Shown: positions 1-59,217 of the stretch, piece by piece | Layout: each line of letters starts with the position of its first letter | How positions within the stretch are numbered: position 1 is the stretch's first letter | Notes under the pieces: generated by a model | Told to the model about the DNA's origin: nothing | The model's database searches: none | The model's input: only the letters and a program-made list of their open reading frames with translations | Source: a bacterium | GTDB taxonomy: Bacteria > Bacteroidota > Ignavibacteria > SZUA-365 | Length of the DNA stretch: 64,000 nt | Assembly (NCBI GenBank): GCA_020444325.1 | Contig: JAHLLD010000002.1 | Span: 1-64,000, forward strand | Direction: 5' to 3' | Made by a program: the position numbers and the translations under genes

Positions 1-236
1 AGGCACTCCCGCGTGCCGCAGGCACTCCCGCGTGCCGCAGGCACTCCCGCGTGCCGCAGGCACTCCCGCGTGCCGCAGGCACTCCCGCGTGCCGCAGGCA
101 CTCCCGCGTGCCGCAGGCACTCCCGCGTGCCGCAGGCACTCCCGCGTGCCGCAGGCACTCCCGCGTGCCGCAGGCACTCCCGCGTGCCGCAGGCACTCCC
201 GCGTGCCGCAGGCACTCCCGCGTGCCGCAGGCACTC
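1..236. repeat. 19-bp tandem repeat array, about 12.4 perfect copies, cut by the window edge
   Basis: The unit aggcactcccgcgtgccgc repeats head to tail from base 1 to 236 with no mismatch and then decays at base 237. Because 19 is not a multiple of three and the unit has no stop in one direction, all three plus frames stay open through it; these open frames are artefacts. The array continues beyond the left edge, so its true length is unknown. It lies directly upstream of the hydrolase gene at 304. Its perfect identity suggests recent expansion by slippage. Confidence 0.97.
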
Positions 237-303
237 TTGCTATCTCACCCGGGTGCTTCTATATTGCTTTTCCCCCTTCGATATTATCAACTGGAGGAAT
301 ACG

Positions 304-981
304 ATGCTGAACATTACGTATCTGAGCCATTCTTCTTTTCTTCTGGAGGACGGGACGCACACGGTGGTGATCGATCCGTTTCTGACAGGAAATCCGAACG
401 CGCCGATGAAGGCGGAGGATATCGATGCGCAGTTTGTGGTGCTGACGCATGCGCATGGCGATCATATCGGCGATGCATTCGAGATTGCGAAACGCTGCGA
501 TGCGCTGGTGATCGCAGTGAATGAACTCGCCAATTTTGCAGCTGAAAATGGTGCCCGGGCACATAACATGCATATCGGCGGTGCTTACACGTTTCCTTTC
601 GGACGACTGAAATTCACCATCGCACATCACGGATCGTCATCTCCCGACGGCAGATACATGGGTGAACCTGCAGGGGTCGTTATCACCATGGGCGGCAAGA
701 CGGTGTATCACACCGGCGATACCGGCCTTTTCCTCGATATGCAGCTCATCGGGCAGCGGGATGCCATCGACTGCATGATCGCGCCGATTGGAGATAATTT
801 CACCATGGGCATCGATGACGCGGTGAAGGCGGTGGAGTTCGCCAAGCCGGGCCTGGCCATTCCCATTCACTATAACACCTTTCCCGTGATCGAGGCCGAC
901 CCGCAGGAGTTTCGCAGCAAGGTGGAAGCGTCGGGACATCAGGCGCGCGTTCTCGACTTCGGTGAACGCTACGAACTCTGA
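304..981 (+). CDS. Metal-dependent hydrolase, UPF0173 type (metallo-beta-lactamase fold)
   Basis: This 225-residue cytoplasmic protein has the metallo-beta-lactamase signature H49-A-H51-G-D53-H54, an early Asp in VIDPFLTGNP, a downstream HTGDTG metal-ligand motif and a late HYNTFP histidine. These features and the length match the UPF0173 (YtkL-like) family, whose natural substrate is not established. The ATG at 304 is chosen because GGAGGA sits at 293-298 and the fold begins at once (MLNITYLSHSSFLL). Longer forms that start in the upstream repeat array have no ribosome site and would add repeat-coded sequence, so they are rejected. No signal peptide is seen. The gene stands alone. Family assignment is firm; the substrate is unknown. 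Confidence 0.9.
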   Translation: MLNITYLSHSSFLLEDGTHTVVIDPFLTGNPNAPMKAEDIDAQFVVLTHAHGDHIGDAFEIAKRCDALVIAVNELANFAAENGARAHNMHIGGAYTFPFGRLKFTIAHHGSSSPDGRYMGEPAGVVITMGGKTVYHTGDTGLFLDMQLIGQRDAIDCMIAPIGDNFTMGIDDAVKAVEFAKPGLAIPIHYNTFPVIEADPQEFRSKVEASGHQARVLDFGERYEL

Positions 982-1034
982 CAGACGCATTGAGCTCAGA
1001 CAAACGTTTCGAGCTTTGACAATCGTTTCGAGTT
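978..1034. repeat. Degenerate 19-bp tandem repeat, three copies
   Basis: Three 19-bp units run through the stop codon of the hydrolase gene: CTGACAGACGCATTGAGCT, CAGACAAACGTTTCGAGCT and TTGACAATCGTTTCGAGTT, followed by a partial CTGACAGG. The period equals that of the array at 1-236 but the sequence is unrelated. The copies have diverged, so this array is older or was never perfect. Confidence 0.75.
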
Positions 1035-1300
1035 CTGACAGGGTACGCCTGTTGTTACCGCGCGTGGAGTTTTTTACGGTCAGGAAGAGTTCCCGAACGG
1101 CTATTTGTTTTTTGTGAAATAATTCGCAGATTGGTGTCCCTTCAAGGGCCAACGCTCTTGGAAACGGAATGCACTGATTGACCATCCCGCGTCTGCCTGC
1201 AAGCCCTGCGCGCGGTCAATGACACAACATCGAAAGGGTATTTATCCCGGACAGCCCGGAGGGAAGGGTAGTTCATCCTGTTCCACCTGTGCGAGCATGC
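982..1300. other. Gene-free spacer
   Basis: About 320 bases between the hydrolase and the next lipoprotein gene. Apart from the tail of the degenerate 19-bp repeat, no convincing gene, terminator hairpin or promoter was found. The open frames here are antisense to the neighbours and lack ribosome sites. Confidence 0.5.
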
Positions 1301-2053
1301 ATGCATACGTTTGCTTCCGCATTGTTCCGCAATATTCATCTGATTCTCGTAGTGACGTTTGTGTTTACCGCCTGCGGCGGGAAACAGATGAGCATTGAGG
1401 AATTCCAGGCCAAAGCGCGTGAAGCGGAGGAAAAATCCTCCTCGATTGTTTCCTGTCAGGAATCCATGCGCGACCTGCTGCAATCCTACAACCAGACTGT
1501 TGCTCCCGAGCGACGCCTCACGCTTAACTTTCATCCGGAATCAGGCATGAGCCGGGAAGAGTTGAAAACGCTGCTGGCGCATATCGAGAGCGAACCGGAC
1601 CCCGCCTGCCGTGGGATACTCGAACAGATTGCCATGCTGCAGGAAGACGTCGATCTTCTGCATGACAGTCTGCACGAAATCACGGAAGAACTGCCGGCAC
1701 CGCATCGCGTCGAGCGCGGAGAGAACCATTACACGCTCTGCATGGATTATCTGATGCAGAATCATGGGCTTTCGCAGCGCGCAGCCGATTCCCTCGTGGC
1801 GCGGGTCGCGTTGACCGGTGACATCATCGAGGGTTTCCATGTGTGGTACCTGTACCAGAACGACGTGTTCGGAACCTTCGTAACGCAGGGCGACGCGAGT
1901 ATTTCACCGACGGTGTTCGCAAAGGTTGTCAAGAACCACCTGCTCGAGGAAGCCCGCAAACAGGGACGCCACGAAGCGTTTGAAAGCATTCTCGACAGTC
2001 TCAAACGTTCCGGTGCCCTGCTGGCCAATCTGAAAAACGGAGCCCTGCGGTAA
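1301..2053 (+). CDS. Predicted lipoprotein of unknown function
   Basis: About 250 residues. The N terminus is a lipoprotein signal: a hydrophobic stretch NIHLILVVTFVFTACGG with a lipobox Cys near residue 25. The mature part is helical and charged (IEEFQAKAREAEEKSS, then EQIAMLQEDVDLLHDSLHE), which suggests coiled coil, followed by a more globular half with YTLCMDYLMQNHGLSQRAAD. I do not recognise the family. An in-frame GTG at 1289 would add four residues; neither start has a clear ribosome site. A hairpin follows the gene at 2078-2110. It stands alone and converges with the minus-strand gene ending at 2189. Confidence 0.75.
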   Translation: MHTFASALFRNIHLILVVTFVFTACGGKQMSIEEFQAKAREAEEKSSSIVSCQESMRDLLQSYNQTVAPERRLTLNFHPESGMSREELKTLLAHIESEPDPACRGILEQIAMLQEDVDLLHDSLHEITEELPAPHRVERGENHYTLCMDYLMQNHGLSQRAADSLVARVALTGDIIEGFHVWYLYQNDVFGTFVTQGDASISPTVFAKVVKNHLLEEARKQGRHEAFESILDSLKRSGALLANLKNGALR

Positions 2054-2077
2054 ATCCGCCGGACGTAGGAAAAAAGT

Positions 2078-2110
2078 GGCGGTCCCTTTCCTCACCGGAG
2101 AGGGACCGCC
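2078..2110. terminator. Hairpin terminator between convergent genes
   Basis: GGCGGTCCCT (2078-2087) pairs perfectly with AGGGACCGCC (2101-2110) around a 13-base loop. An A-rich run (2070-2075) on one side and TTGAATTT on the other suggest it can end transcription from both directions. Confidence 0.65.
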
Positions 2111-2188
2111 TTGAATTTAGGGGAGCCCGCCCACATTATCGGACTCCCTGTCACTTCGCTCAATCAACAGGGTAATGCGTCACTGTGC

Positions 2189-4276
2189 TCATCTGATCAG
2201 CATCAATTTGCGCGAAGTGCTTGTCTTGCCATTATCCATTTTGCAGAAGTAGATGCCTGCGGGGAGATCCCCGGCGTTGAATCGTACGCTGTGCCGGCCG
2301 GCGGACTGCTGCCCGTCGACCAGGCGTGCAACCTCCCTTCCAAGGGCGTCGTGCACGGCCAACCGCATGTACATCCCATGCGGGAGGCTGTAGCGTATCG
2401 CGGTGCCTCCCGTGAAAGGATTGGGCGAGTTCGCCTCGAGTGAAAACTGTGCAACCGTGCCGCGGTCATCGCGAGCGTCGACGAGGGATACCGGGACATT
2501 CGCTCCGGTGAGATACCAGACGTACTGGTTGGCGAGCAGGGGATCATCGTCAGTTCGCTCCCCGATGCCCCATTCTACAAAGAGAATGTGGAGCTGGTCC
2601 TGCTCACCGGCATACGCGGCCATCTTGGTGTATTTTGCACCCACATCGGTCAGCGCGGTCAGCCGCATCATGCTGTCCATCTCCGCGGTATTGTGATCGG
2701 GTTCGGCGAAATCCCAGGAATAGGTCCAGGGCCGTTTCAGGTTCGATGCGATGTGCCGTCCATTGGCATAGATTTGCGTGATCGTGTCTTCAAACAGCGT
2801 GGGAGTTCCCGCAACATCGGCCACGGTCCATGTCAGCATGGGCGTGATCCACTTCGCCCAGAGTTTCGTTCCATCCCCGTTGCGTGCCCATGCGACTTCA
2901 TTCCGAAACACCGCAGCTTCATCGCTCTCCGACTGTGATGTGAACGCCAGTCTGTCCGTACGCACCCGGTACACGGGTCCCGCGGGAAGGATGTGCCATG
3001 TCCCACGGGTGTCACGGAAGATTTCGGTGACGAAGGTGGAGTCGACATGCCGGAGATTGATGGAGGAATCGGGCAGCGCTTCATCGAAGGGATTGAAGGG
3101 ATTCAGATCAGCGGAGCAGACGGTAAGGAAATGCGGGATGTTGTCGGCGTCGAGCACGACATCGAGATCCCAGGACTGCGCAATCTTCGTCTCGAAGGGG
3201 GCAGGACGATCCTGCAGTTCGGACAGTCTTACGGTTTGTACCTCACCCCAGCTCTCTCCTCCGTTCGTTGAAATGCGCCATGCGATGGCGTGCAGTTCGT
3301 CGATCAGGTTGGCGCGTCCCGGTTCGGTCTCGCTGAGCTGTACCCAGCTCGCGACCATCGTACTTCCGTTCGGTGAGATGCTCAGGCGATGACTCAGCGC
3401 TGCATAGCCGTTCGGCACGATGCCCGATTTGAAAAACGGATTTTCAAGGCTCGCAGCATTCCAGTTCTCGCCGCCGTCAGTCGATTTGAGAAGGTAGTAT
3501 TCCTCGTAGGAGAGTCCGTTGGAGGGATCGATCGCCTCCGCGGCGGAATAGAGATCGCCGGTGCTCCGATCCATCATGATTGACCAGGGGATGCCCCAGT
3601 CCGGGGGACCCGGTACTGTTGCATACGCGGGGGACTGATTCATCAGCCCCGATTTCATCGCATTGATTTCACCGAATCCCTCGCTGCCGTCTCCGAAGCT
3701 GACGACCTGCGGCCAGAGCAGTGCGGTTTGCGGTACCGTTTCTCCGGCATTGGGAAGGAATATATTCGGGTAACGGGGCTGGTCTGTGGTCGCCACATTG
3801 CCGCCTTTGGGCGACCAGCTGTTTCCATCGTCGGTGGAGTAACGGATATACAACGTATTCCCGTCACCATCGGGGGAGCGGTCATCACCGCGAAATACAA
3901 TGGCGACACTTCCTGTATTCGGGTCACACGCTATCTGATTGCGGTTCTCACCGATCATGCAATAGGTGTTTGCCATTTGTCCCACCTCAAAGAGCGGAAA
4001 CTGCACCGAAGCGTTTTGCGCCGTGGTGTTTGCTGTCTTCACCAGTCGCCGCGGCGCATCGGAGGCGGCTCTGTATGCGTTGCGGGATTGGGAAGTTCGA
4101 TGTAGGGGGGAGAGGGGGCCCGGGATTCGGGCAGACGATTGGCGTTCGGGTTGATCGGTCGGACGCAGCTGGACCTTATGTGCGGGGGTGGCAGGAGGCT
4201 CACGCAGCGGTGACTGGGCGAACAGGCTGCAGGTCAGGAGGAGGACGGACAAAAGCGTAGCGAGGCATCGCATCAT
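2189..4276 (-). CDS. Secreted sialidase-like (Asp-box) protein with T9SS sorting domain, copy 1
   Basis: This 695-residue protein has a signal peptide (MMRCLATLLSVLLLTCSLFAQ) and a long beta-propeller-like body. The body holds Asp-box (BNR) motifs STDDGNSW, STDGGENW and STNGGESW, as in sialidases and other six-bladed propellers. The C terminus is a T9SS type A domain: SPNPFTGGTAIRYSL, then DALGREVARL and ending KLMLIR. It should be exported through the outer membrane and attached or released. The start has AGGAG just upstream on the minus strand. It is a clear paralog of the gene at 4446-6485, lies directly downstream of it and is of similar length. The catalytic residues of true sialidases are not evident, so glycosidase activity is not claimed. 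Confidence 0.85.
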   Translation of the reverse strand: MMRCLATLLSVLLLTCSLFAQSPLREPPATPAHKVQLRPTDQPERQSSARIPGPLSPLHRTSQSRNAYRAASDAPRRLVKTANTTAQNASVQFPLFEVGQMANTYCMIGENRNQIACDPNTGSVAIVFRGDDRSPDGDGNTLYIRYSTDDGNSWSPKGGNVATTDQPRYPNIFLPNAGETVPQTALLWPQVVSFGDGSEGFGEINAMKSGLMNQSPAYATVPGPPDWGIPWSIMMDRSTGDLYSAAEAIDPSNGLSYEEYYLLKSTDGGENWNAASLENPFFKSGIVPNGYAALSHRLSISPNGSTMVASWVQLSETEPGRANLIDELHAIAWRISTNGGESWGEVQTVRLSELQDRPAPFETKIAQSWDLDVVLDADNIPHFLTVCSADLNPFNPFDEALPDSSINLRHVDSTFVTEIFRDTRGTWHILPAGPVYRVRTDRLAFTSQSESDEAAVFRNEVAWARNGDGTKLWAKWITPMLTWTVADVAGTPTLFEDTITQIYANGRHIASNLKRPWTYSWDFAEPDHNTAEMDSMMRLTALTDVGAKYTKMAAYAGEQDQLHILFVEWGIGERTDDDPLLANQYVWYLTGANVPVSLVDARDDRGTVAQFSLEANSPNPFTGGTAIRYSLPHGMYMRLAVHDALGREVARLVDGQQSAGRHSVRFNAGDLPAGIYFCKMDNGKTSTSRKLMLIR

Positions 4277-4395
4277 GACAGACTCCTGTATGCATGTGGG
4301 AACGGTCGGGAGCCTGACACCTCCACCCAGACGCCAGGCGGCTATGTATTGTGTTCATAGTCTAGGACACCAGAATCGGAATTAGGTAACAAAAA

Positions 4396-4424
4396 AAATC
4401 CTCCCCCGAAACGGGGGAGGATTT
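4396..4424 (-). terminator. Strong rho-independent terminator
   Basis: A perfect 13-bp stem, AAATCCTCCCCCG (4396-4408) with CGGGGGAGGATTT (4412-4424) and a three-base loop AAA. On the minus strand a run of T follows (the A tract at 4391-4398). It lies just past the stop codon of the 4446-6485 gene and separates the two paralogs into distinct transcripts. Confidence 0.92.
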
Positions 4425-4445
4425 CAAAGCGGGAAAAAGATCTGC

Positions 4446-6485
4446 TTATTTGCTGAGCATCATCTTTTTCGCAACACTGTTGGCGCCGCTCTCGAGACGG
4501 TAGATATACATACCGCTGGAAAGCTTGCTGGCGTCGAAGGTCACGCGATGCGTTCCGGCATTGCGATACTCGTCAACCAGCGTGGCAACTTCCTGTCCGA
4601 GCAGGTTGAAGATACGCAGGGAAACCTGCGAAGCCTTCGGCAGCGTAAAGCTGATTTCGGTGCTCGGGTTGAAGGGGTTCGGGTAGTTCTGTGCGAGTGC
4701 GAAGGCACCCGGGGTTGCGTCGAGCTGCTCGACGTCAACGGCATCCAGAACCTTGAGCATGACATCGTTCACATACCAGACGACCTGATCGGTGAATACG
4801 GGATCGTCATCAAGACGCTCACCGATGCCCCACTCGGTAAAGATGATATGCAGATGGCCATCTTCGCCCTGCTCGTTGGCATAGTAGGCGATCTTCGTGT
4901 ACTTGGCCATGACATCTTCAAGATCCGTCACGCGCATGATGCTGTCGAGCACGAAGGTGTTCGGGTCGTCCGGATCCGTGTAATTCCACTTGTAGGTCCA
5001 TGCATCGAGACTGCGGCTGTCGACATTACGGCCATTGACATAAATCTGGCAGATGGTGTCAGCCGGCAGGGTCTGATCGACGACCGGGAACCAGGTGAAG
5101 ATCGGGGAGATCCACTTCGCATAGATCTTGCTGCCGTCCCAGTTACGGGCCCAGTTCGGCTCGTTGCGGAACACGGCGGCTGCGTCGGTGGAGGAGGTAG
5201 CGGTGAAGGACAGGCGGTCGGTACGCACGCGGCGCACGGGACCAATCGGATATACTTTCCAGCCACCCTCGGGAACCATGCAGATTTCCGAAGTGAAAGT
5301 GGAGTCGACGTGCACGAGGCTGATGGTGCTGTCCGTCGGGGCTTCGTTGGTCGGCCAGAACGGATACAGGTCAGCGGAGAGCACGGTGATGAAGTGAGGC
5401 ATGTCGTCTTTGTCGAGGATCACATCGAGATCCCATGACATTTCGCACTTGGCGTCGAAGGGACGCGGGAGATTCGGGAGTGCACTGGGCTTGATACGCT
5501 CAGGATCGCTCCAGGTGGAACCCATATCGGTCGAGATGCGATAGGCGATCTCATGGTTGGCTTCGAGCAGCAGGGCCGAGCCCGGCTCGCTTTCAATGAT
5601 CAGGTTGTAGGCGCAGATCATCGTGCCGTTCGGCGAGATGTCAAAACGCACGTTGGTCGTGAAATAACCACTGGGCGTCAGGTCGGCGTACCACACCGGG
5701 TTGTCGAAGTTGACAGGATTCCAGTTCGCGCCGCCGTCGGTGGACTTCATAACGAAGTATTCGCCGGTGGAGGTGCCGTTGGAGGGCTCGAGTGCGAGAG
5801 CGATGCTGTAAAGATCGCCGGTAGCCTGATCCTGCTTGATCTGCCAGGGGATTGACCAGTTGGGAGGAGTGGCAAACTGACCGTACGACGGGTTGCCGTT
5901 GCCGATGTCGGCCTTCATCGAGTACACTTCACCGAAACCGTCGGTTCCGTCACCGAAGGTCGTGACCTGCGGCCACAGCACTGCGGTGTGGGCGCCGCTG
6001 CTGCCATTGGCGTTCGGCAGGAAGATGCTCGGGTAACGCGGGCTTGCACTGTTGGCGATGTTGTCGCCCTGCGGCGTCCAGGTCGCGCCGTTATCGTTCG
6101 AATAGCGAATGTACAGCGTGTTGCCGTCGCCCTGCGAGGAGCGATCGTTGCCGCGGAAGATCACGGCGACATTCCCGGTGTTGGGGTCGCAGGCGATCTG
6201 GTTGCGGGTGTCACCGATCATGGCATACGTGTTGGCCATGAGTCCGATTTCATAAAGGTCATTGGTCTGCGTCTTGCGAAGCGTGTTCGTGGTGCTGCGC
6301 ACGCGGTTGTTGCGGGCCTGTTCGGTAAGCATGAGCAGCTTCTGCTCGAAGGTGACCTTGGGAGCTTTCGCGGCATCGAGCTGGGCCGATCCGGACAGGG
6401 CATCAGGTGTTTTGACAACCACCTGCTGTGCCTGTGCCACTCCGGCGAAAGCCACCAGAACGGCGATCAGAAACAGTTTCTTCAT
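4446..6485 (-). CDS. Secreted sialidase-like (Asp-box) protein with T9SS sorting domain, copy 2
   Basis: About 679 residues from the ATG at 6485, chosen because AGGAG lies just upstream and MKKLFLIAVLVAFAGVAQAQ is a clean signal peptide; an in-frame start 17 codons earlier would bury it. Asp-box motifs YSNDNGATW, KSTDGGANW and ISTDMGSTW mark a propeller. The C-terminal T9SS type A domain is AQNYPNPFNPSTEISF with NLLGQEVATLVDE, ending KKMMLSK. It aligns with the neighbour at 2189-4276 over essentially its whole length (for example LMANTYAMIGDTRNQIACDPNTG against QMANTYCMIGENRNQIACDPNTG), so the pair arose by tandem duplication. It ends at a strong terminator. Substrate unknown. Confidence 0.87.
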   Translation of the reverse strand: MKKLFLIAVLVAFAGVAQAQQVVVKTPDALSGSAQLDAAKAPKVTFEQKLLMLTEQARNNRVRSTTNTLRKTQTNDLYEIGLMANTYAMIGDTRNQIACDPNTGNVAVIFRGNDRSSQGDGNTLYIRYSNDNGATWTPQGDNIANSASPRYPSIFLPNANGSSGAHTAVLWPQVTTFGDGTDGFGEVYSMKADIGNGNPSYGQFATPPNWSIPWQIKQDQATGDLYSIALALEPSNGTSTGEYFVMKSTDGGANWNPVNFDNPVWYADLTPSGYFTTNVRFDISPNGTMICAYNLIIESEPGSALLLEANHEIAYRISTDMGSTWSDPERIKPSALPNLPRPFDAKCEMSWDLDVILDKDDMPHFITVLSADLYPFWPTNEAPTDSTISLVHVDSTFTSEICMVPEGGWKVYPIGPVRRVRTDRLSFTATSSTDAAAVFRNEPNWARNWDGSKIYAKWISPIFTWFPVVDQTLPADTICQIYVNGRNVDSRSLDAWTYKWNYTDPDDPNTFVLDSIMRVTDLEDVMAKYTKIAYYANEQGEDGHLHIIFTEWGIGERLDDDPVFTDQVVWYVNDVMLKVLDAVDVEQLDATPGAFALAQNYPNPFNPSTEISFTLPKASQVSLRIFNLLGQEVATLVDEYRNAGTHRVTFDASKLSSGMYIYRLESGANSVAKKMMLSK

Positions 6486-6747
6486 TCGTGACTCCTGTTG
6501 ATTGAGTGGAACGTGTAAATTATACGTTGTTCGCATGCAATGGCTAAAGAGGGCGGAGAGAGCCGGTCTTTCTTCTTAGACACAGAATTGCGGACTTGGT
6601 AACATCATTTTCCGCAACATCGCACGCCTCAAGGACGGTCCGCTGCGAGATGTCCGCAACGGCAGAATCCAATTCGTAATGTAATAGTTGTGCAAACAAA
6701 AGCCTAACAATATCCACCGGAACCCGGTGTTTCAGGGTGGATATGCG

Positions 6748-34553: not shown

Positions 34554-34584
34554 TTGACACAAAAAAATTTTGGTCGCATTTTAT
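34554..34584 (+). promoter_or_regulatory. Possible promoter
   Basis: TTGACA at 34554-34559 is followed, 19 bases on, by TTTTATTG at 34579-34586, in an AT-rich stretch about 48 bases before the lipoprotein start at 34632. Spacing is longer than ideal, so this is tentative. Confidence 0.3.
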
Positions 34585-34631
34585 TGCTTTCGGGGGCAGC
34601 GTGCCGCCGTATCAGCACGATGGAGGAAGTC

Positions 34632-35114
34632 ATGAGAAAACTATTGCAAGGGGGGATGCCAGTGCTGGTCGCGCTGCTGTTGTTCGGATGCGCTGCGCAG
34701 CGCACCGCATCGCCTGAGGCCATGCGTCATGAGGCGCGCATGCATTACCCGGACCGGAGTGATGCACAGATCTACAATGCCGTGAAAAGCTGGGTGCTGG
34801 CGCATTGCGAGTGGGATGGCGATATCCTGCAGTTTGAAGACACCGCACAGCATGCGTTGATGGCGCGTGGCGTATGGAAGCGTGCGAGTGAGTATGCGCC
34901 CATGCTTGAAGTGGATATCGAGTACACCCTCAGTGTCGAAATAGACAAGGGGGAGGCCTTCTTTCAGCTGTCAAGACTCGCGGCGATGTCAGCCGACGAG
35001 AAGCACGAAGAGATGACGTTCTATTCAAATTCCGAGAAGTTTCATGAAGATGTCGAGACCCGTTTTCAGGAAATGATCGGCCAGCTGGATTTTGCCATAC
35101 AGAATTCGGAGTAA
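34632..35114 (+). CDS. Predicted lipoprotein of unknown function
   Basis: 160 residues from the ATG at 34632, preceded by GGAGGAAG. The signal is MRKLLQGGMPVLVALLLFGC with the lipobox LLFGC. The mature part contains YPDRSDAQIYNAVKSWVLAH and a repeated beta/helix pattern (VDIEYTLSVEIDKGEAFFQL), but no family I recognise. A longer frame from 34554 would run through the promoter-like region and is rejected. A strong terminator follows at 35178-35216, so it is a single-gene transcript. Confidence 0.78.
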   Translation: MRKLLQGGMPVLVALLLFGCAAQRTASPEAMRHEARMHYPDRSDAQIYNAVKSWVLAHCEWDGDILQFEDTAQHALMARGVWKRASEYAPMLEVDIEYTLSVEIDKGEAFFQLSRLAAMSADEKHEEMTFYSNSEKFHEDVETRFQEMIGQLDFAIQNSE

Positions 35115-35441
35115 TCCCGGATCGATCCGTTTTTCAAACTCACGGTACAGGTCCGTCGGGCCACACCGAACCCGGCATCCCGCCTGCCGCCTTGCGGCAC
35201 TGGCGGGATTTTTTTTCTGCTTCCGAAGCACCGCACTTGCATCTGTGTTGGAAATTGGATAGTGTGGCAGAGTCTAACCATAAGCCAGTGCAGAAGCGTC
35301 GAAAGCAGATTCCCATTCAGGGTGCATCTGCGGAGGTCATACCCGTATGATGTTGTGAGGGATATCGATGTCTGACCAACTGGCGAACTGCCGGAAACGA
35401 GGCGTACGGCAATCCAATCATTCTGAACAAGGAGGTTCACC
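35115..35441. other. Gene-free spacer with terminator
   Basis: 327 bases between the lipoprotein and the gene at 35442. It holds the terminator at 35178-35216; the remaining 225 bases contain no gene and should include the promoter of the following cassette, although no clear box was found. Confidence 0.55.
35178..35216 (+). terminator. Rho-independent terminator
   Basis: TCCCGCC (35178-35184) pairs with GGCGGGA (35202-35208); the inner part GCCGCCTTGCGGC can fold as a second stem. Eight T follow directly (35209-35216). Confidence 0.9.
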
Positions 35442-36191
35442 ATGATGATGAAACCGACGCTGTCGTTCGACCGGAGCAGGGAGTTGTTCGAGGGCCTGCA
35501 GCAATCAAGAAATCCACACGCCGCTGATTCGCTTACGCGCGCGAGTGAAGCCCCTGAAATCGATCCCCAGCAATATCTCGAAGCCCGGATTTACAAGGTC
35601 TTCGTAAAAGAGGATATGGAGGACTCATTACTGGGGCTTAATGCTGAAGCCGAGCTATATCTGATTGGTGTTGCGCTCGACAATATTTCATCCGATCCAC
35701 TGTCTTTCAAAGTAGACACGTTTCGTATTTCTTCTTCCGATCCATCTGATGACGATACCCCTGAGAGCAGACCTGACCGGTTGCTGCAATTCGGGAGCAC
35801 GGGATGGTCGTTCTATCGATCGCCGAATGGGAAGTTGCCGACGTACCTGGATCTGAATATGGTGTTGTTCGAATCGGATGAGGATCTGCGGGAAACCGGG
35901 CAGATCATGAAAGATCTGGCGACAAACGAAGAACTGAAAGGGATGAAGAATTCTGCGATTGCAATGCTCAAATCTGCATCGACGGCGACGTGGGCTGGGT
36001 TTGCATCGAATATGGCGTTGCAGGTGGTCGGTCTTATCGGGAAGTACCTCGTATTAAATCAGGACGATGTCATCTCTCATCTGCAGGCCAGTCATTCTAC
36101 CGCCTTTGGTGACATCGGGAACAGGGATTTCAAGTTCAGCGATCACAATGCCGGATGGTGGTATGGTATGCGCCAGGTTGAAAATGCATAG
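35442..36191 (+). CDS. Uncharacterised soluble partner of the Cache/STAND-like protein
   Basis: 249 residues, no signal peptide. The ATG at 35442 lies seven bases after GGAGG. The N-terminal 50 residues are polar and probably disordered. Residues about 50-150 are beta-rich and acidic (ARIYKVFVKEDMEDSLLGLN, AEAELYLIGVALDN, GSTGWSFYRSPNGKLPTYL). About 168-205 is an Ala-rich, partly amphipathic helix (SAIAMLKSASTATWAGFASN, then MALQVVGLIGKYLVL), followed by an aromatic C terminus (NAGWWYGMRQVENA). I do not recognise the family. The stop is 19 bases before the 1390-residue gene and a terminator isolates the pair upstream, so the two are taken as one transcript. Confidence 0.75.
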   Translation: MMMKPTLSFDRSRELFEGLQQSRNPHAADSLTRASEAPEIDPQQYLEARIYKVFVKEDMEDSLLGLNAEAELYLIGVALDNISSDPLSFKVDTFRISSSDPSDDDTPESRPDRLLQFGSTGWSFYRSPNGKLPTYLDLNMVLFESDEDLRETGQIMKDLATNEELKGMKNSAIAMLKSASTATWAGFASNMALQVVGLIGKYLVLNQDDVISHLQASHSTAFGDIGNRDFKFSDHNAGWWYGMRQVENA

Positions 36192-36210
36192 ATGCGAAAG
36201 GTAGCAGGAT

Positions 36211-39200
36211 ATGAGCAAGGACAGTTCCGGACAGGTGAAAACGCGGCGCAGCGGTTTTCCACGGCGTAAGTACTTTGCCGTGGGAGCGGTATTACTTTTC
36301 CTCGCGGTGTGTGTACTGCTGTATTTTCGCAGTCTTGAGCGGAACAGGGAACATCTGACGCAACACAACATCCGTCACCTCGGCACCATCGCGACCGTTA
36401 TCCAGGAACGGCTCGATGCGTTTGCCGATGCTGTCGGCAATGCGCTGGATTATTCCGCTGATGACCGCTGGAAGGCCGCACAGCAGCCATGTGAGCCTGA
36501 TCGCCGGTATACGAGGAACGCAGAGGCAAATCCTCCGCGGCCACAGGGGGTCTCGGTACGGCAGGAATACGAGAAACTGCCTGCCCATCTGCGAGGCAGA
36601 ATGATCACGGAACAGAAAATGAAGTCTCCACAGGCAGATGTCGTTGCGCAAAGCAACCGGGAGGTAAAGGAGGAGAAGCCTGACAATGCTGAGGAGGTGC
36701 AGCGCGTCGCGCAACAGAAGCGCAAACTCATGTTCAGTGACAGCGCAAGCGTCATTGAAGCAACGCCCAGCTACGATCAGCTTCTCGACGTGGCACAAAT
36801 CACGGAAGGATCTTTCGATGCCATCCTGCTTGTCAGTGCGGCTGGAGACAGTGTGCTGTTCAACAGTGCGCCACAGACCATGCGCATCACGCGCATCGAC
36901 AGCGTGCTGATTGACGAGCAGAATCGGTCTTTCCTCGAGGTTGCCATGAACACGAATGTCGGCCTTCTCACTGTCGCCAACAAGGAATTCCTCATCTACA
37001 TACAGGTGATGAAGGATCTGCGCGTTTGCGGAATGCTGGAGCGGGATCGATTTGAAAAGCAGGTGCAGTCCATTCATGGCGTTTCCCTGCTCGACGGTAT
37101 GATTGTCCTCGCCCTGCTGCTTCTTGCAATTCCTCTGATCACGCTGCATTACGCACGCATCAACGAACGCATTCAGCCGTTAAATGTTCTCATCACTATT
37201 GCATGCATCATCCTCGGGTCGACCCTGGTCGTCCTGTTGCTGGCGGATTTCCTGTACAACAAGCAAACAGTCGACGAGGTCGACAATCGCACCCTTGAAC
37301 ATTTTTCCCGTGAAATCAAGCAACGTGTGACCCGCGAGTTCGCGCAGCTCGACAGCATGACCACAATGCTGGACAGAGACATTGCTGCGCGTTCGGGCGT
37401 CCCATTCGATTCCGTCCACGCGCTGACGGATTCCGCAATCGGATCTCGGCTGATGGGGCATCTCGATTCCCTGCCTTTCCATCTGCGTCCAGCGATCTTT
37501 CATCAACCCTCTCAGCGAGCGTTCGATCGCATCCTGTCACGATACCCGTATTTCCATCAGCTGTACTGGATGGACGAGGAAGGACTCATGAAAGCGCTGT
37601 GGACGAAGAATCCCTATCTCTATTACGATGTACCGGTGAAGGACCGGGAATACTTCCAGGCTGTCATGAACGGCGCACAGCGTTATATACAGCCTCATTA
37701 CACCCGCTCGAGCGGGGATTTCATGGTTGCCTACAGCCGTCCATCGCCCCTGTTCTTTCGGGAAGGCGCGATGCGGGTGAAAGCAGCAGCGTCCGATGAC
37801 GATTCCGGTGCATGCTGGGACACCCTCCATACCGCAGTGGGAGCCGTGGACCTCCTGCCGCGCTCGCTTGTAAACACCTGGTTTCCGGAAGGGTACGGTT
37901 TCATGTTCATCGACCGCGCGGGATTTGTCCTTTTCCATTCAATTACGCGCCGCAGCCTGCATGAGAATCTGTTTGACGAGTGCGGAGACAATGCGCTTCG
38001 CGATATCGTCGAAGCGGGGGCAGATGGCCTTGTGAGTACACGGTACTGGGAAGACCAGGTCCGTATGCTTGCGTCCCCGTTTTCCCTCCCGCATGTGAAG
38101 GATTCGTGGTATCTGGTCGTCTACTCCGAGCAGGATATGATCACGGATATGAAAGCGGGAAACCTGATGATGAGTGGCATGATGTACCTGTATTTTTTCA
38201 TCCCCATCATGCTTGGCTTCATATTTTTTGCCTATATGTGGGATCCCCGGCTGCGTCTGCTCTGGCACAAACCGGGCTTTGAAAAACAGTACAAGGAGCG
38301 CACGCTCAGCAGCCTGATCGCGGCAGCAGTGACCATGTTTGCGGCGATGTTCCTTTTCGACGATGTATACCTGGTATTGCTGACGGGCCTCGTGCTTCCG
38401 CATGCGCACTACCAGCTCACGCTCTGGAACATGGATGCAAATGCCATACCCTATCCCACGCATCATCGGAGACGCTGGCTGCATGCGATGCGTTCACGGC
38501 GCGGAGCTGCGTTCATTGTCCATGCAATCATGGTATTGCTGTACCTCTACATTCTCTTCGTGAACATGGATGCCGATGCGGATGCTGCTGTCGGATGGAC
38601 GGCCTGGGGACGCTTGCTGGTACTGGCGGCACTGGTACTCCTGCTGATTCTTATCGACCGGGGGGTACATCTTTTCGTGCAGCGTCGCGGAAGTCGTGGG
38701 AAAAACGACGAAAGTCTGAAATGGTATGTGCGGTCTCTCACGGCGACCGTGTTGCTGGTGAGTTTCGTCCCCATGGCGATTTTCTTCCGTGGGGCGACTG
38801 ACCTGCACAGCATGGCGTACGAAAGAGTGCAGAAGGATTCGTTTTTTCGCTCACTCACTGTGCGCAATGCCCGCCTTGAAGCGGAGTATGAGAGTGAACG
38901 TATCCTGCATGAAGACGCGTCGCGACTTTCCAATGCAAGCGTAAAGCAGGAGGAAGGCCCTGCGCTGTACGACACGCTTGCCATGACCGCAAAGCGGGAT
39001 ACGCGCGATGTGTATATCATTGGGAAGAAGGAGGGGCTGCAAGCGTCCAGCAGTGTCCCTGTAGTCGTGAATGACACACTGCTGCGGGCCTTCCTGCTTC
39101 CTGTCAACAGCAGTGCGCGGCTGTTTCGCCGGCAGCTCGCCTCCGGTGGCGCCGGGTCGATCGACACCACCGCTGTGGTGGATGCAGGATTTCGCGCTGA

Positions 39201-40383
39201 CAACCTTCCACCGTTGGTATACCCACGTTCGTTTCGCGTGACGCCACGGTTCGGCGGTGTGCTTCCCGTGATTCTCGCCTTCGGAATATTTCTCTTGATA
39301 CTGTACACGCTTATCAGGTATGGCACGCGCAGACTGTTCATGACGGAGATGCGTGTGCCGGACAGACTTCCCGGACGATGGGAAGACGGCAGCTGCCTCT
39401 TCATCTGGACGTCGGAAGAGGACCACCGGCGTTTTCTTGATCGTTGCCGGAGCATGTCGCCCGAGCCGGAAATACACTGCCTGAATGAACACAGTATGAA
39501 GGCATTGCTCGAGGACAACGAACATCGTCCAGGAGACGACCGGCGTGTCGTGCTCGACTGTTTCGAATATGATGCCAACAACGCCATCGCCAATCTGCGC
39601 AAGCTGGAACTTCTTGAACACCTGCTTTTCACCCAGTCTGCCCGTGTCTGTGTTGTGTGCTCAGTCGATCCGGAATACTATTTCTTCCAAAGCGACGATT
39701 CGCCGCAAAGTCCGGATCTGCGTGAGCGCTGGAAACGTGTGCTGAACATGCTGGTCACTCTCGAGTACGGCAACAGTACGGAAGAGCATGTACGTACGCC
39801 GCACAGACAGCCACTGGGGACGCATCCCTCGCTGGCCGAAATCGTCGATATGGATTGTACGCTTGCAGGAATGGAGGACATTGCCGAGCACGCACACCGG
39901 TTGGTGCGCGACGGATTGTTGAAGGAGAGGGATGATGTGCTGCTGTGGATCAGTAAACAGAGCAAACCGTTGTATCAAAGTATCTGGATGACCTGTCGCA
40001 AGCGAGAGCGCTTTGTTCTCTATCGTATAGCGCAGGACGGCTTTGTCCCGCACCGGGCGTTGAACATTATTCGTCAGCTCGTCACGCGTGGCCTTCTGAT
40101 ACGTGACCCGAGTCTCTGCGTATTCAATGAAACCTTCGAGCGTTTCATTCTCGAAGTCAAGACACCCGAACAGATCAGGGAATGGGAAGCTGAAGAGCCA
40201 CCCGGAATCTGGGGCAGCATCAAGCACCCGATACTCGTCGGATTCGTGGTGATCGCGGCTGCGCTGTTCTACGTGAACCCCAATTACTTCGATTCGACCG
40301 TAGCCATCCTGACGGCGCTCGCCGGCGCCATCCCGCTTCTCTTCCGCGTCCGCGGTTTCATCACGACCGGGAAGGCGGAGTAG
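36211..40383 (+). CDS. Cache-sensor multi-membrane protein with degenerate STAND/AAA-like and winged-helix C-terminal domain
   Basis: 1390 residues. One helix (about 24-43), an extracytoplasmic segment, two helices (about 294-345), then a Cache-like sensor (about 346-650, with PYFHQLYWMDEEGLM and VPVKDREYFQAVMNGAQRYI). Several helices follow (about 651-860), another extracytoplasmic loop, a helix at 1014-1042, and a cytoplasmic domain (about 1043-1335). This last part has a Walker-B-like strand (RRVVLDCFEYD) and a sensor-like strand (ARVCVVCSVDPEYY), but no GxxxxGK[ST] P-loop. It ends with a winged-helix-like stretch (YRIAQDGFVPHRALNIIRQL, RGLLIRDPSLCVFNETFERF) and two terminal helices. It is likely a membrane signalling protein with an inactive or divergent NTPase fold. 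Start follows AGGAT. Confidence 0.85.
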   Translation: MSKDSSGQVKTRRSGFPRRKYFAVGAVLLFLAVCVLLYFRSLERNREHLTQHNIRHLGTIATVIQERLDAFADAVGNALDYSADDRWKAAQQPCEPDRRYTRNAEANPPRPQGVSVRQEYEKLPAHLRGRMITEQKMKSPQADVVAQSNREVKEEKPDNAEEVQRVAQQKRKLMFSDSASVIEATPSYDQLLDVAQITEGSFDAILLVSAAGDSVLFNSAPQTMRITRIDSVLIDEQNRSFLEVAMNTNVGLLTVANKEFLIYIQVMKDLRVCGMLERDRFEKQVQSIHGVSLLDGMIVLALLLLAIPLITLHYARINERIQPLNVLITIACIILGSTLVVLLLADFLYNKQTVDEVDNRTLEHFSREIKQRVTREFAQLDSMTTMLDRDIAARSGVPFDSVHALTDSAIGSRLMGHLDSLPFHLRPAIFHQPSQRAFDRILSRYPYFHQLYWMDEEGLMKALWTKNPYLYYDVPVKDREYFQAVMNGAQRYIQPHYTRSSGDFMVAYSRPSPLFFREGAMRVKAAASDDDSGACWDTLHTAVGAVDLLPRSLVNTWFPEGYGFMFIDRAGFVLFHSITRRSLHENLFDECGDNALRDIVEAGADGLVSTRYWEDQVRMLASPFSLPHVKDSWYLVVYSEQDMITDMKAGNLMMSGMMYLYFFIPIMLGFIFFAYMWDPRLRLLWHKPGFEKQYKERTLSSLIAAAVTMFAAMFLFDDVYLVLLTGLVLPHAHYQLTLWNMDANAIPYPTHHRRRWLHAMRSRRGAAFIVHAIMVLLYLYILFVNMDADADAAVGWTAWGRLLVLAALVLLLILIDRGVHLFVQRRGSRGKNDESLKWYVRSLTATVLLVSFVPMAIFFRGATDLHSMAYERVQKDSFFRSLTVRNARLEAEYESERILHEDASRLSNASVKQEEGPALYDTLAMTAKRDTRDVYIIGKKEGLQASSSVPVVVNDTLLRAFLLPVNSSARLFRRQLASGGAGSIDTTAVVDAGFRADNLPPLVYPRSFRVTPRFGGVLPVILAFGIFLLILYTLIRYGTRRLFMTEMRVPDRLPGRWEDGSCLFIWTSEEDHRRFLDRCRSMSPEPEIHCLNEHSMKALLEDNEHRPGDDRRVVLDCFEYDANNAIANLRKLELLEHLLFTQSARVCVVCSVDPEYYFFQSDDSPQSPDLRERWKRVLNMLVTLEYGNSTEEHVRTPHRQPLGTHPSLAEIVDMDCTLAGMEDIAEHAHRLVRDGLLKERDDVLLWISKQSKPLYQSIWMTCRKRERFVLYRIAQDGFVPHRALNIIRQLVTRGLLIRDPSLCVFNETFERFILEVKTPEQIREWEAEEPPGIWGSIKHPILVGFVVIAAALFYVNPNYFDSTVAILTALAGAIPLLFRVRGFITTGKAE

Positions 40384-40593
40384 ACGGCGGCATCTCCAGA
40401 ATGCCGATGGGAGCGAATTTCAGAAAATCAGGGGGAGAGATGCAGAATAGGTGGTAGTACCGATGCGTGGCTCCGCTGCAGGCGGTATTATGGGGATAAG
40501 GTCAACTACTCCTAAATATAGTATTCAATGGCAGCACTGGGTTGCGCGCTGCCGATACGCACCTGCATCTCAATTATTCCGGCGGAGGTCCAC

Positions 40594-59142: not shown

Positions 59143-59217
59143 TGGACGCAGTGGGATTTGAACCTACGACCTCTCGCGTGTGAGGCGAGCGCTCTGGACC
59201 AACTGAGCTATGCGTCC
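59143..59217 (-). tRNA. tRNA-Val (CAC anticodon)
   Basis: A complete cloverleaf on the minus strand: acceptor GGACGCA with TGCGTCC, D arm GCTC...GAGC, anticodon arm CTCGC-CTCACAC-GCGAG with anticodon CAC (Val, reads GUG), and T loop TTCAAAT. The T stem is GTAGG with CCCAC, leaving one A-C mismatch in the middle. CCA is not encoded. Confidence 0.93.

Follow-up and report, generated by a model that had tools for sequence, protein, structure and literature searches.

STAND proteins serve as switches in the immune receptors of plants, animals and bacteria, and they are thought to need the exchange of ATP or ADP. The protein family described here shares with STAND NTPases, i.e., the NB-ARC domains of plant NLRs such as RPP1, archaeal PAB2304, bacterial Avs and nSTAND1 (the last described by Kaur et al., 2021, PMC8195603), a predicted order of P-loop-type core, helical part and winged helix. 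However, in this family an intact Walker A motif is missing from 19/19 homologues, the large protein is predicted to be anchored by 11–12 membrane helices, two of which follow the winged helix, and it has neither a fused cytoplasmic effector nor a repeat sensor, its sensor being periplasmic. The nearest published idea is that of the iSTAND (catalytically inactive STAND) ternary systems, in which the STAND core is likewise inactive and some members have membrane segments (Kaur et al., 2020, PMC7159879). The iSTAND proteins work with MoxR and vWA proteins, which are required there, and a Cache domain is not mentioned in that paper (PMC7159879); inspection by eye of the reading frames at our loci, part of whose neighbours were profiled, revealed no MoxR or vWA protein. 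The dCache receptors, i.e., chemoreceptors, histidine kinases (e.g., KinD) and diguanylate cyclases, place a periplasmic dCache between membrane helices as the large protein does, whereas its output is a pseudo-STAND domain instead of a kinase, cyclase or methyl-accepting domain, and it contains further membrane helices and periplasmic segments. The CapV-type patatin effectors of CBASS resemble patatins found beside two of the large genes, but none of the reading frames at these loci could be recognised as a nucleotide cyclase, and a membrane receptor takes its place. A description of a Cache-STAND membrane protein with a patatin was not found in the open-access subset of the literature, where absence is no proof of novelty. 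It is fair to call this protein a variant of STAND-type receptors, combining a dead STAND domain with a periplasmic Cache and membrane anchoring.

The window, i.e., the whole 64,000-nucleotide stretch of an Ignavibacteria contig (JAHLLD010000002.1) that was analysed, carries the gene of this 1390-aa protein directly behind that of a 249-aa protein, on the same strand (Table 1). The two reading frames, the 19 bases between them and the terminator upstream had all been proposed in the initial annotation and were found as described. Both genes can be regarded as real because intact long-frame homologues exist in other genera. The terminator consists of a GC stem followed by T8 (−25.2 kcal/mol, z −3.46, i.e., about −3.5, with 1 of 200 shuffles equally stable) and ends about 225 bases before the start of the 249-aa gene, while no strong fold is present just 3′ of the large gene (40370–40470, z +0.45). 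The close spacing suggests that the two genes would be read as one transcript. The GC content is 0.505 in the 249-aa gene vs. 0.557 in the neighbouring large gene, which hints at a separate arrival of the former. The gene upstream of the terminator (window 34554–35114) gave a weak match to DUF4468 (E = 6e-4) and apparently has no relation to the two-gene unit; the sole Rfam match within the window is a tRNA gene (59143–59217, minus strand).

Table 1. Features of the two-gene unit, with positions in the window; residue numbers (aa) refer to the 1390-aa protein.
Feature	Position	Strand	Basis or remark
Intrinsic terminator, divides upstream gene from two-gene unit	35177..35217	+	fold prediction
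249-aa partner gene	35442..36191	+	no known family
1390-aa transmembrane Cache/pseudo-STAND protein gene	36211..40383	+	
Membrane helix 1 (aa 21-39), N-terminus on the cytoplasmic side	36271..36327	+	topology
First periplasmic domain (aa 40-292), no assigned fold	36328..37086	+	topology
Membrane helices 2-3 (aa 293-344)	37087..37242	+	topology
Second periplasmic domain (aa 345-655), dCache	37243..38175	+	Pfam match aa 419-511
Membrane helices 4-9 (aa 656-858)	38176..38784	+	positively charged inside loops
Third periplasmic segment (aa 859-1016), no assigned fold	38785..39258	+	topology
Membrane helix 10 (aa 1017-1035)	39259..39315	+	hydropathy
Pseudo-STAND nucleotide-binding and helical part (aa 1049-1251)	39355..39963	+	AlphaFold2 model, AAA+/STAND matches
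Site of lost P-loop (aa 1062-1081)	39394..39453	+	model strand 1062-1065, then helix 1069-1081; sisters carry GxPGxxKL about here
Walker-B strand RVVLD (aa 1112-1116)	39544..39558	+	strand 67-71 of model
Sensor-1-like strand RVCVVC (aa 1145-1150)	39643..39660	+	strand 100-105 of model
Winged-helix-like domain (aa 1252-1316)	39964..40158	+	most conserved region across the family
Two C-terminal membrane helices (aa 1337-1378)	40219..40344	+	

The anatomy of the large protein is well supported by prediction and comparison. Hydropathy and topology agree with the hydrophobic segments noticed at the outset and give 11 membrane helices, or 12 if the stretch 698–736 forms two helices, as in some homologues. 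The charged loops fit the positive-inside rule with a cytoplasmic N-terminus, three periplasmic segments, a cytoplasmic domain (aa 1036–1336) and two final helices. The second periplasmic segment, flanked by membrane helices, is supported as a predicted dCache domain, in agreement with the Cache-like sensor first suggested for the protein. In the window protein dCache_1 is matched with E = 1.9e-8 at 34.6 bits, below the curated Pfam cut-off of 45, and dCache is therefore a family-level call: 9/19 family members match this model (best 2.7e-11), and the family profile compared with solved dCache structures matches KinD best (E = 5e-5) and also the sensors of diguanylate cyclases.

For the cytoplasmic part, the initial annotation had proposed a degenerate STAND-like domain, and structure prediction with fold search points the same way. 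The AlphaFold2 model of aa 1046–1390, built with 19 homologues, has a pLDDT of 77.8, and the proteins that Foldseek and VIA list as its matches belong to the P-loop NTPases, in most cases to the AAA+ or STAND groups. Many of these, e.g., clamp loaders, DnaA-like proteins and RuvB, align mainly in the core, while the longest alignments, running from the core through the winged helix, are to STAND proteins, i.e., RPP1 (Z 9.4 over 237 residues), WRR4A (Z 9.0 over 233) and PAB2304 (Z 8.9 over 237); in all, STAND chains align over 227–237 residues at Z of about 9. Since the fold statistics are only moderate (best Foldseek E 2e-3; VIA Z of about 9 with 6–8 Å rmsd over long alignments), the STAND assignment rests on the consistency of the matches and on a motif relic. 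This relic, GxPGxxKL, occurs at the expected place in five homologues of one clade (GSPGSGKL, GAPGAGKL, GLPGSNKL, GLPGSGKL and GSPGSGKL) with the Mg-binding Ser/Thr replaced by Leu; one homologue also matches Pfam nSTAND1 (E = 0.0018). The predicted fold, a core of AAA+/STAND type followed by a helical part and a winged helix, is thus supported at the level of the model. The window protein and the homologues outside the relic clade have no P-loop at that place, and a motif scan for intact Walker A (GxxxxGK[ST]) confirmed its absence from the window protein, as first noted, and from all 19 homologues; the only P-loop-like match in the window protein, GFITTGKA at 1382, lies in the C-terminal tail. 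The Walker-B-like RRVVLDCFEYD is present as originally read (aa 1111–1121), its Asp being kept in the window protein and a few homologues and replaced by Asn or Thr in most others. As Walker A is absent, the domain is named pseudo-STAND and not a functional STAND NTPase, and we call the large protein a putative transmembrane pseudo-STAND receptor.

The 249-aa partner gave no known family, no signal peptide and no detectable enzyme motif or fold, and its AlphaFold2 model is unusable (pLDDT 34). Matches to uteroglobin-fusion and SctB proteins (E 0.005–0.04) were taken as chance, for they fade with the family alignment, and those to DUF3810 and MAG1210 were rejected on the same ground of chance. 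The Ala-rich stretch at aa 187–205 is moderately hydrophobic (KD 1.41), under the usual threshold for a membrane helix, and the contact with membranes once suggested for it is putative. Outside the window, homologues turned up only as solitary genes, in three genomes that all belong to one distant genus of the phylum; none was detected in viral contigs, plasmids or phages, and none of the other large-gene loci carries the partner. A conserved two-gene cassette is therefore not supported: the initial annotation had taken a partner without the large gene in most genomes as a refutation, and in all three other genomes with the partner the large gene is missing beside it.

Homologues were reached only via a search of whole genomes; pattern-based scans of genome contigs with the large protein or an alignment of the partner gave no match, nor did the window protein as a query against plasmids. 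The large protein occurs in 6/92 and 7/151 genomes of two families, in about 2% of the sampled genomes of the phylum, and in 3/5 sampled genomes of the window's own genus vs. 0/7 in the sister genera of its family. In a maximum-likelihood tree the window protein and its two relatives from the same genus form a fully supported group; long branches make the deeper placement uncertain. Over the stretches compared, the three same-genus loci have no specific flanking genes in common, and the large gene therefore has the character of an accessory gene that moves. A shorter relative of 1001 aa, found in one plasmid record only, is encoded on the Persicobacter megaplasmid CP012852 (L090, 5541–9441); it has no recognisable second Cache region and keeps the winged helix and the C-terminal helices. 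Its gene overlaps an upstream 303-aa gene of no known family, which is another candidate type of partner. In two genomes of one family (L012, 7321–11379; L014, 9455–13018) the large gene adjoins the same HAD-like, 395/402-aa and 352-aa genes in opposite orientation; the L014 copy is very divergent, and most of its NTPase core fails to align. A hotspot of integration, or an inversion accompanied by decay, could explain this arrangement. Of the C-terminal winged-helix region, 56 residues are left in a frame of 77 aa (L038/L065; G377:C1:509996-510163), which resembles a decayed copy of the large gene.

Partners at the 19 large-gene loci vary: a patatin at three, a Tle1-like/DUF2235 hydrolase at two, DUF2278 at one, the 249-aa gene at one, and often none. 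The patatin genes (L012, L062 and L063) and the DUF2235 genes (upstream of the large gene in L013, downstream in L061) lie on the same strand with tight spacing; L061 also has DUF5675 adjoining the large gene, and in L063 a gene for a muramoyl-alanine amidase is found one position farther out from the receptor. Even within one genus the partner is the 249-aa gene, DUF2278 or none. The DUF2278 protein with a lamin-tail domain is encoded 103 bases from the large gene of a same-genus relative (L067), with a papain-like/alpha-beta hydrolase protein further upstream. The whole upstream region of this locus (111–6515) is rich in hydrolases, comprising a calcineurin-like phosphoesterase, a membrane protein, a papain-like and alpha/beta hydrolase fusion, a 110-aa gene and the DUF2278 gene. 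The patatins belong to two subfamilies of about 23% identity, and those of L062/L063 match PADLOC anti-phage phospholipase effectors (E = 9e-48) with the Ser-Asp dyad motifs kept; the literature on DUF2235 deals mostly with T6SS phospholipase effectors.

A phospholipase-type gene thus adjoins the large gene in 5/19 loci, against a chance expectation of about 0.0013 per locus obtained from measured copy numbers (26 patatin and 7 DUF2235 genes in 12 genomes), which gives P of about 5e-11, or about 1e-8 when counted as four events. Since the loci were gathered with the large protein alone, the lipases were not selected for. The linkage is not obligatory, because a tight hydrolase neighbour is missing from 11–12 of the 19 loci, among them all six of one subfamily. 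In two other genomes with the large gene (G462 and G122), patatins of the two subfamilies named above occur unlinked to it, and the single DUF2235 gene of the window's genome lies on another contig. Further genes of these surroundings include related 394–414-aa proteins with no confident Pfam match, encoded at the start of patatin/DUF2235-linked clusters (L012, 3328–4572; L061, 5159–6343) next to an opposite-strand LuxR-type gene (PAS and LuxR HTH by profile in L061); these 394–414-aa proteins may represent an extra component. Elsewhere, a stand-alone DUF2235 hydrolase is followed on the same strand by a 92-aa gene and a 1698-aa protein of no known kind (L079, 9453–16192). DNA methyltransferase/restriction-type genes flank two large-gene loci (L070, 12427–14298; L069, 5672–6592). 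PADLOC further gave one weak match to HEC-02B (E = 5e-5) in a single distant homologue.

The most economical account, to which we lean tentatively and at a little less than even confidence, is that of a periplasm-sensing receptor whose dead STAND domain serves as a clamp or scaffold for a lineage-specific soluble effector, commonly a phospholipase. The 1390-aa protein would be an inner-membrane receptor whose periplasmic domains, one of them a dCache, may sense a small molecule or a change of the envelope. The signal would pass through the membrane helices to the cytoplasmic STAND domain, i.e., its nucleotide-binding core, helical part and winged helix, where a change of conformation would set free or activate an exchangeable effector that attacks membranes. 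Because the ATPase motif is lost and, in the window's branch, ATP binding probably too, this domain might act as a mechanical clamp or scaffold and not as an ATP-driven switch, which would hold, recruit or activate a soluble effector often encoded just upstream. The effector would vary between lineages (two patatin subfamilies, DUF2235 hydrolases, DUF2278, and the 249-aa protein in the window, whose position suggests such a role), and membrane damage or remodelling would be the likely output since most effectors of recognisable family are of lipid-attacking types. An envelope sensor of ordinary physiology, which responds to nutrients or to stress of the envelope and adjusts the turnover of lipids via patatin or DUF2235, with no immunity involved and the 249-aa gene a passenger, is a serious if rather unlikely alternative. 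It agrees with the fact that dCache domains usually bind nutrients, with the lower GC and solitary homologues of the 249-aa gene, and with one subfamily that in three relatives of one genus (three of the six members mentioned above) constantly lies downstream of an antiporter-like operon and looks vertically inherited; yet the sparse occurrence, in the phylum as in the own and sister genera, the differing surroundings within one genus and the swapping partners rather resemble an accessory conflict gene.

Such patchiness also fits an anti-phage or abortive-infection system, in which phage damage to the envelope would be sensed outside and the STAND-like domain would unleash a membrane-killing effector, as do the STAND fold, the patatins scoring as PADLOC effectors, and the methyltransferase/restriction-type genes near L069 and L070. 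A role in defence is possible, but most loci lie outside obvious defence islands, the defence STANDs described so far are, to our knowledge, ATP-reliant and mostly soluble, and PADLOC assigns neither the window receptor nor its 249-aa partner to a known defence family, for which reason defence is kept only as a rival, and a slightly less probable one than ordinary physiology. That the large protein acts alone, e.g., as a ligand-gated membrane protein with coincidental neighbours, would suit the orphan state of more than half of the loci, but is improbable given phospholipase adjacency far above chance, which is seen upstream as well as downstream of the gene and involves lipase families not related to each other. 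As to the 249-aa protein, its lack of an enzyme motif or known family, and its gene being encoded first with tight spacing, would also suit a role as inhibitor or adaptor by which the receptor is kept in check; this is doubtful, however, since the protein occurs alone in the three other genomes and therefore does not depend on the receptor. The 249-aa protein may thus be an effector, an inhibitor or a passenger. The receptor-clamp account, extended to a membrane-spanning pseudo-NLR class that would join periplasmic Cache sensing and an ATPase-dead STAND clamp to interchangeable, membrane-attacking effectors encoded by neighbouring genes, with the 249-aa protein as an undescribed effector type, is a bolder proposal that we advance with low confidence.

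The frequent position of this large receptor gene beside genes of lipid-cutting enzymes in related bacteria suggests an unrecorded kind of cell-surface alarm. If the clamp mechanism is true, a STAND domain that has lost its ATP site, is fixed to the membrane and takes its signal from periplasmic Cache domains would be an example of another mode of gating for such switches, and receptors of a nutrient type would be linked to phospholipase effectors. The comparison also gives a name to an accessory family that was undescribed in this phylum and whose partners can be tested.
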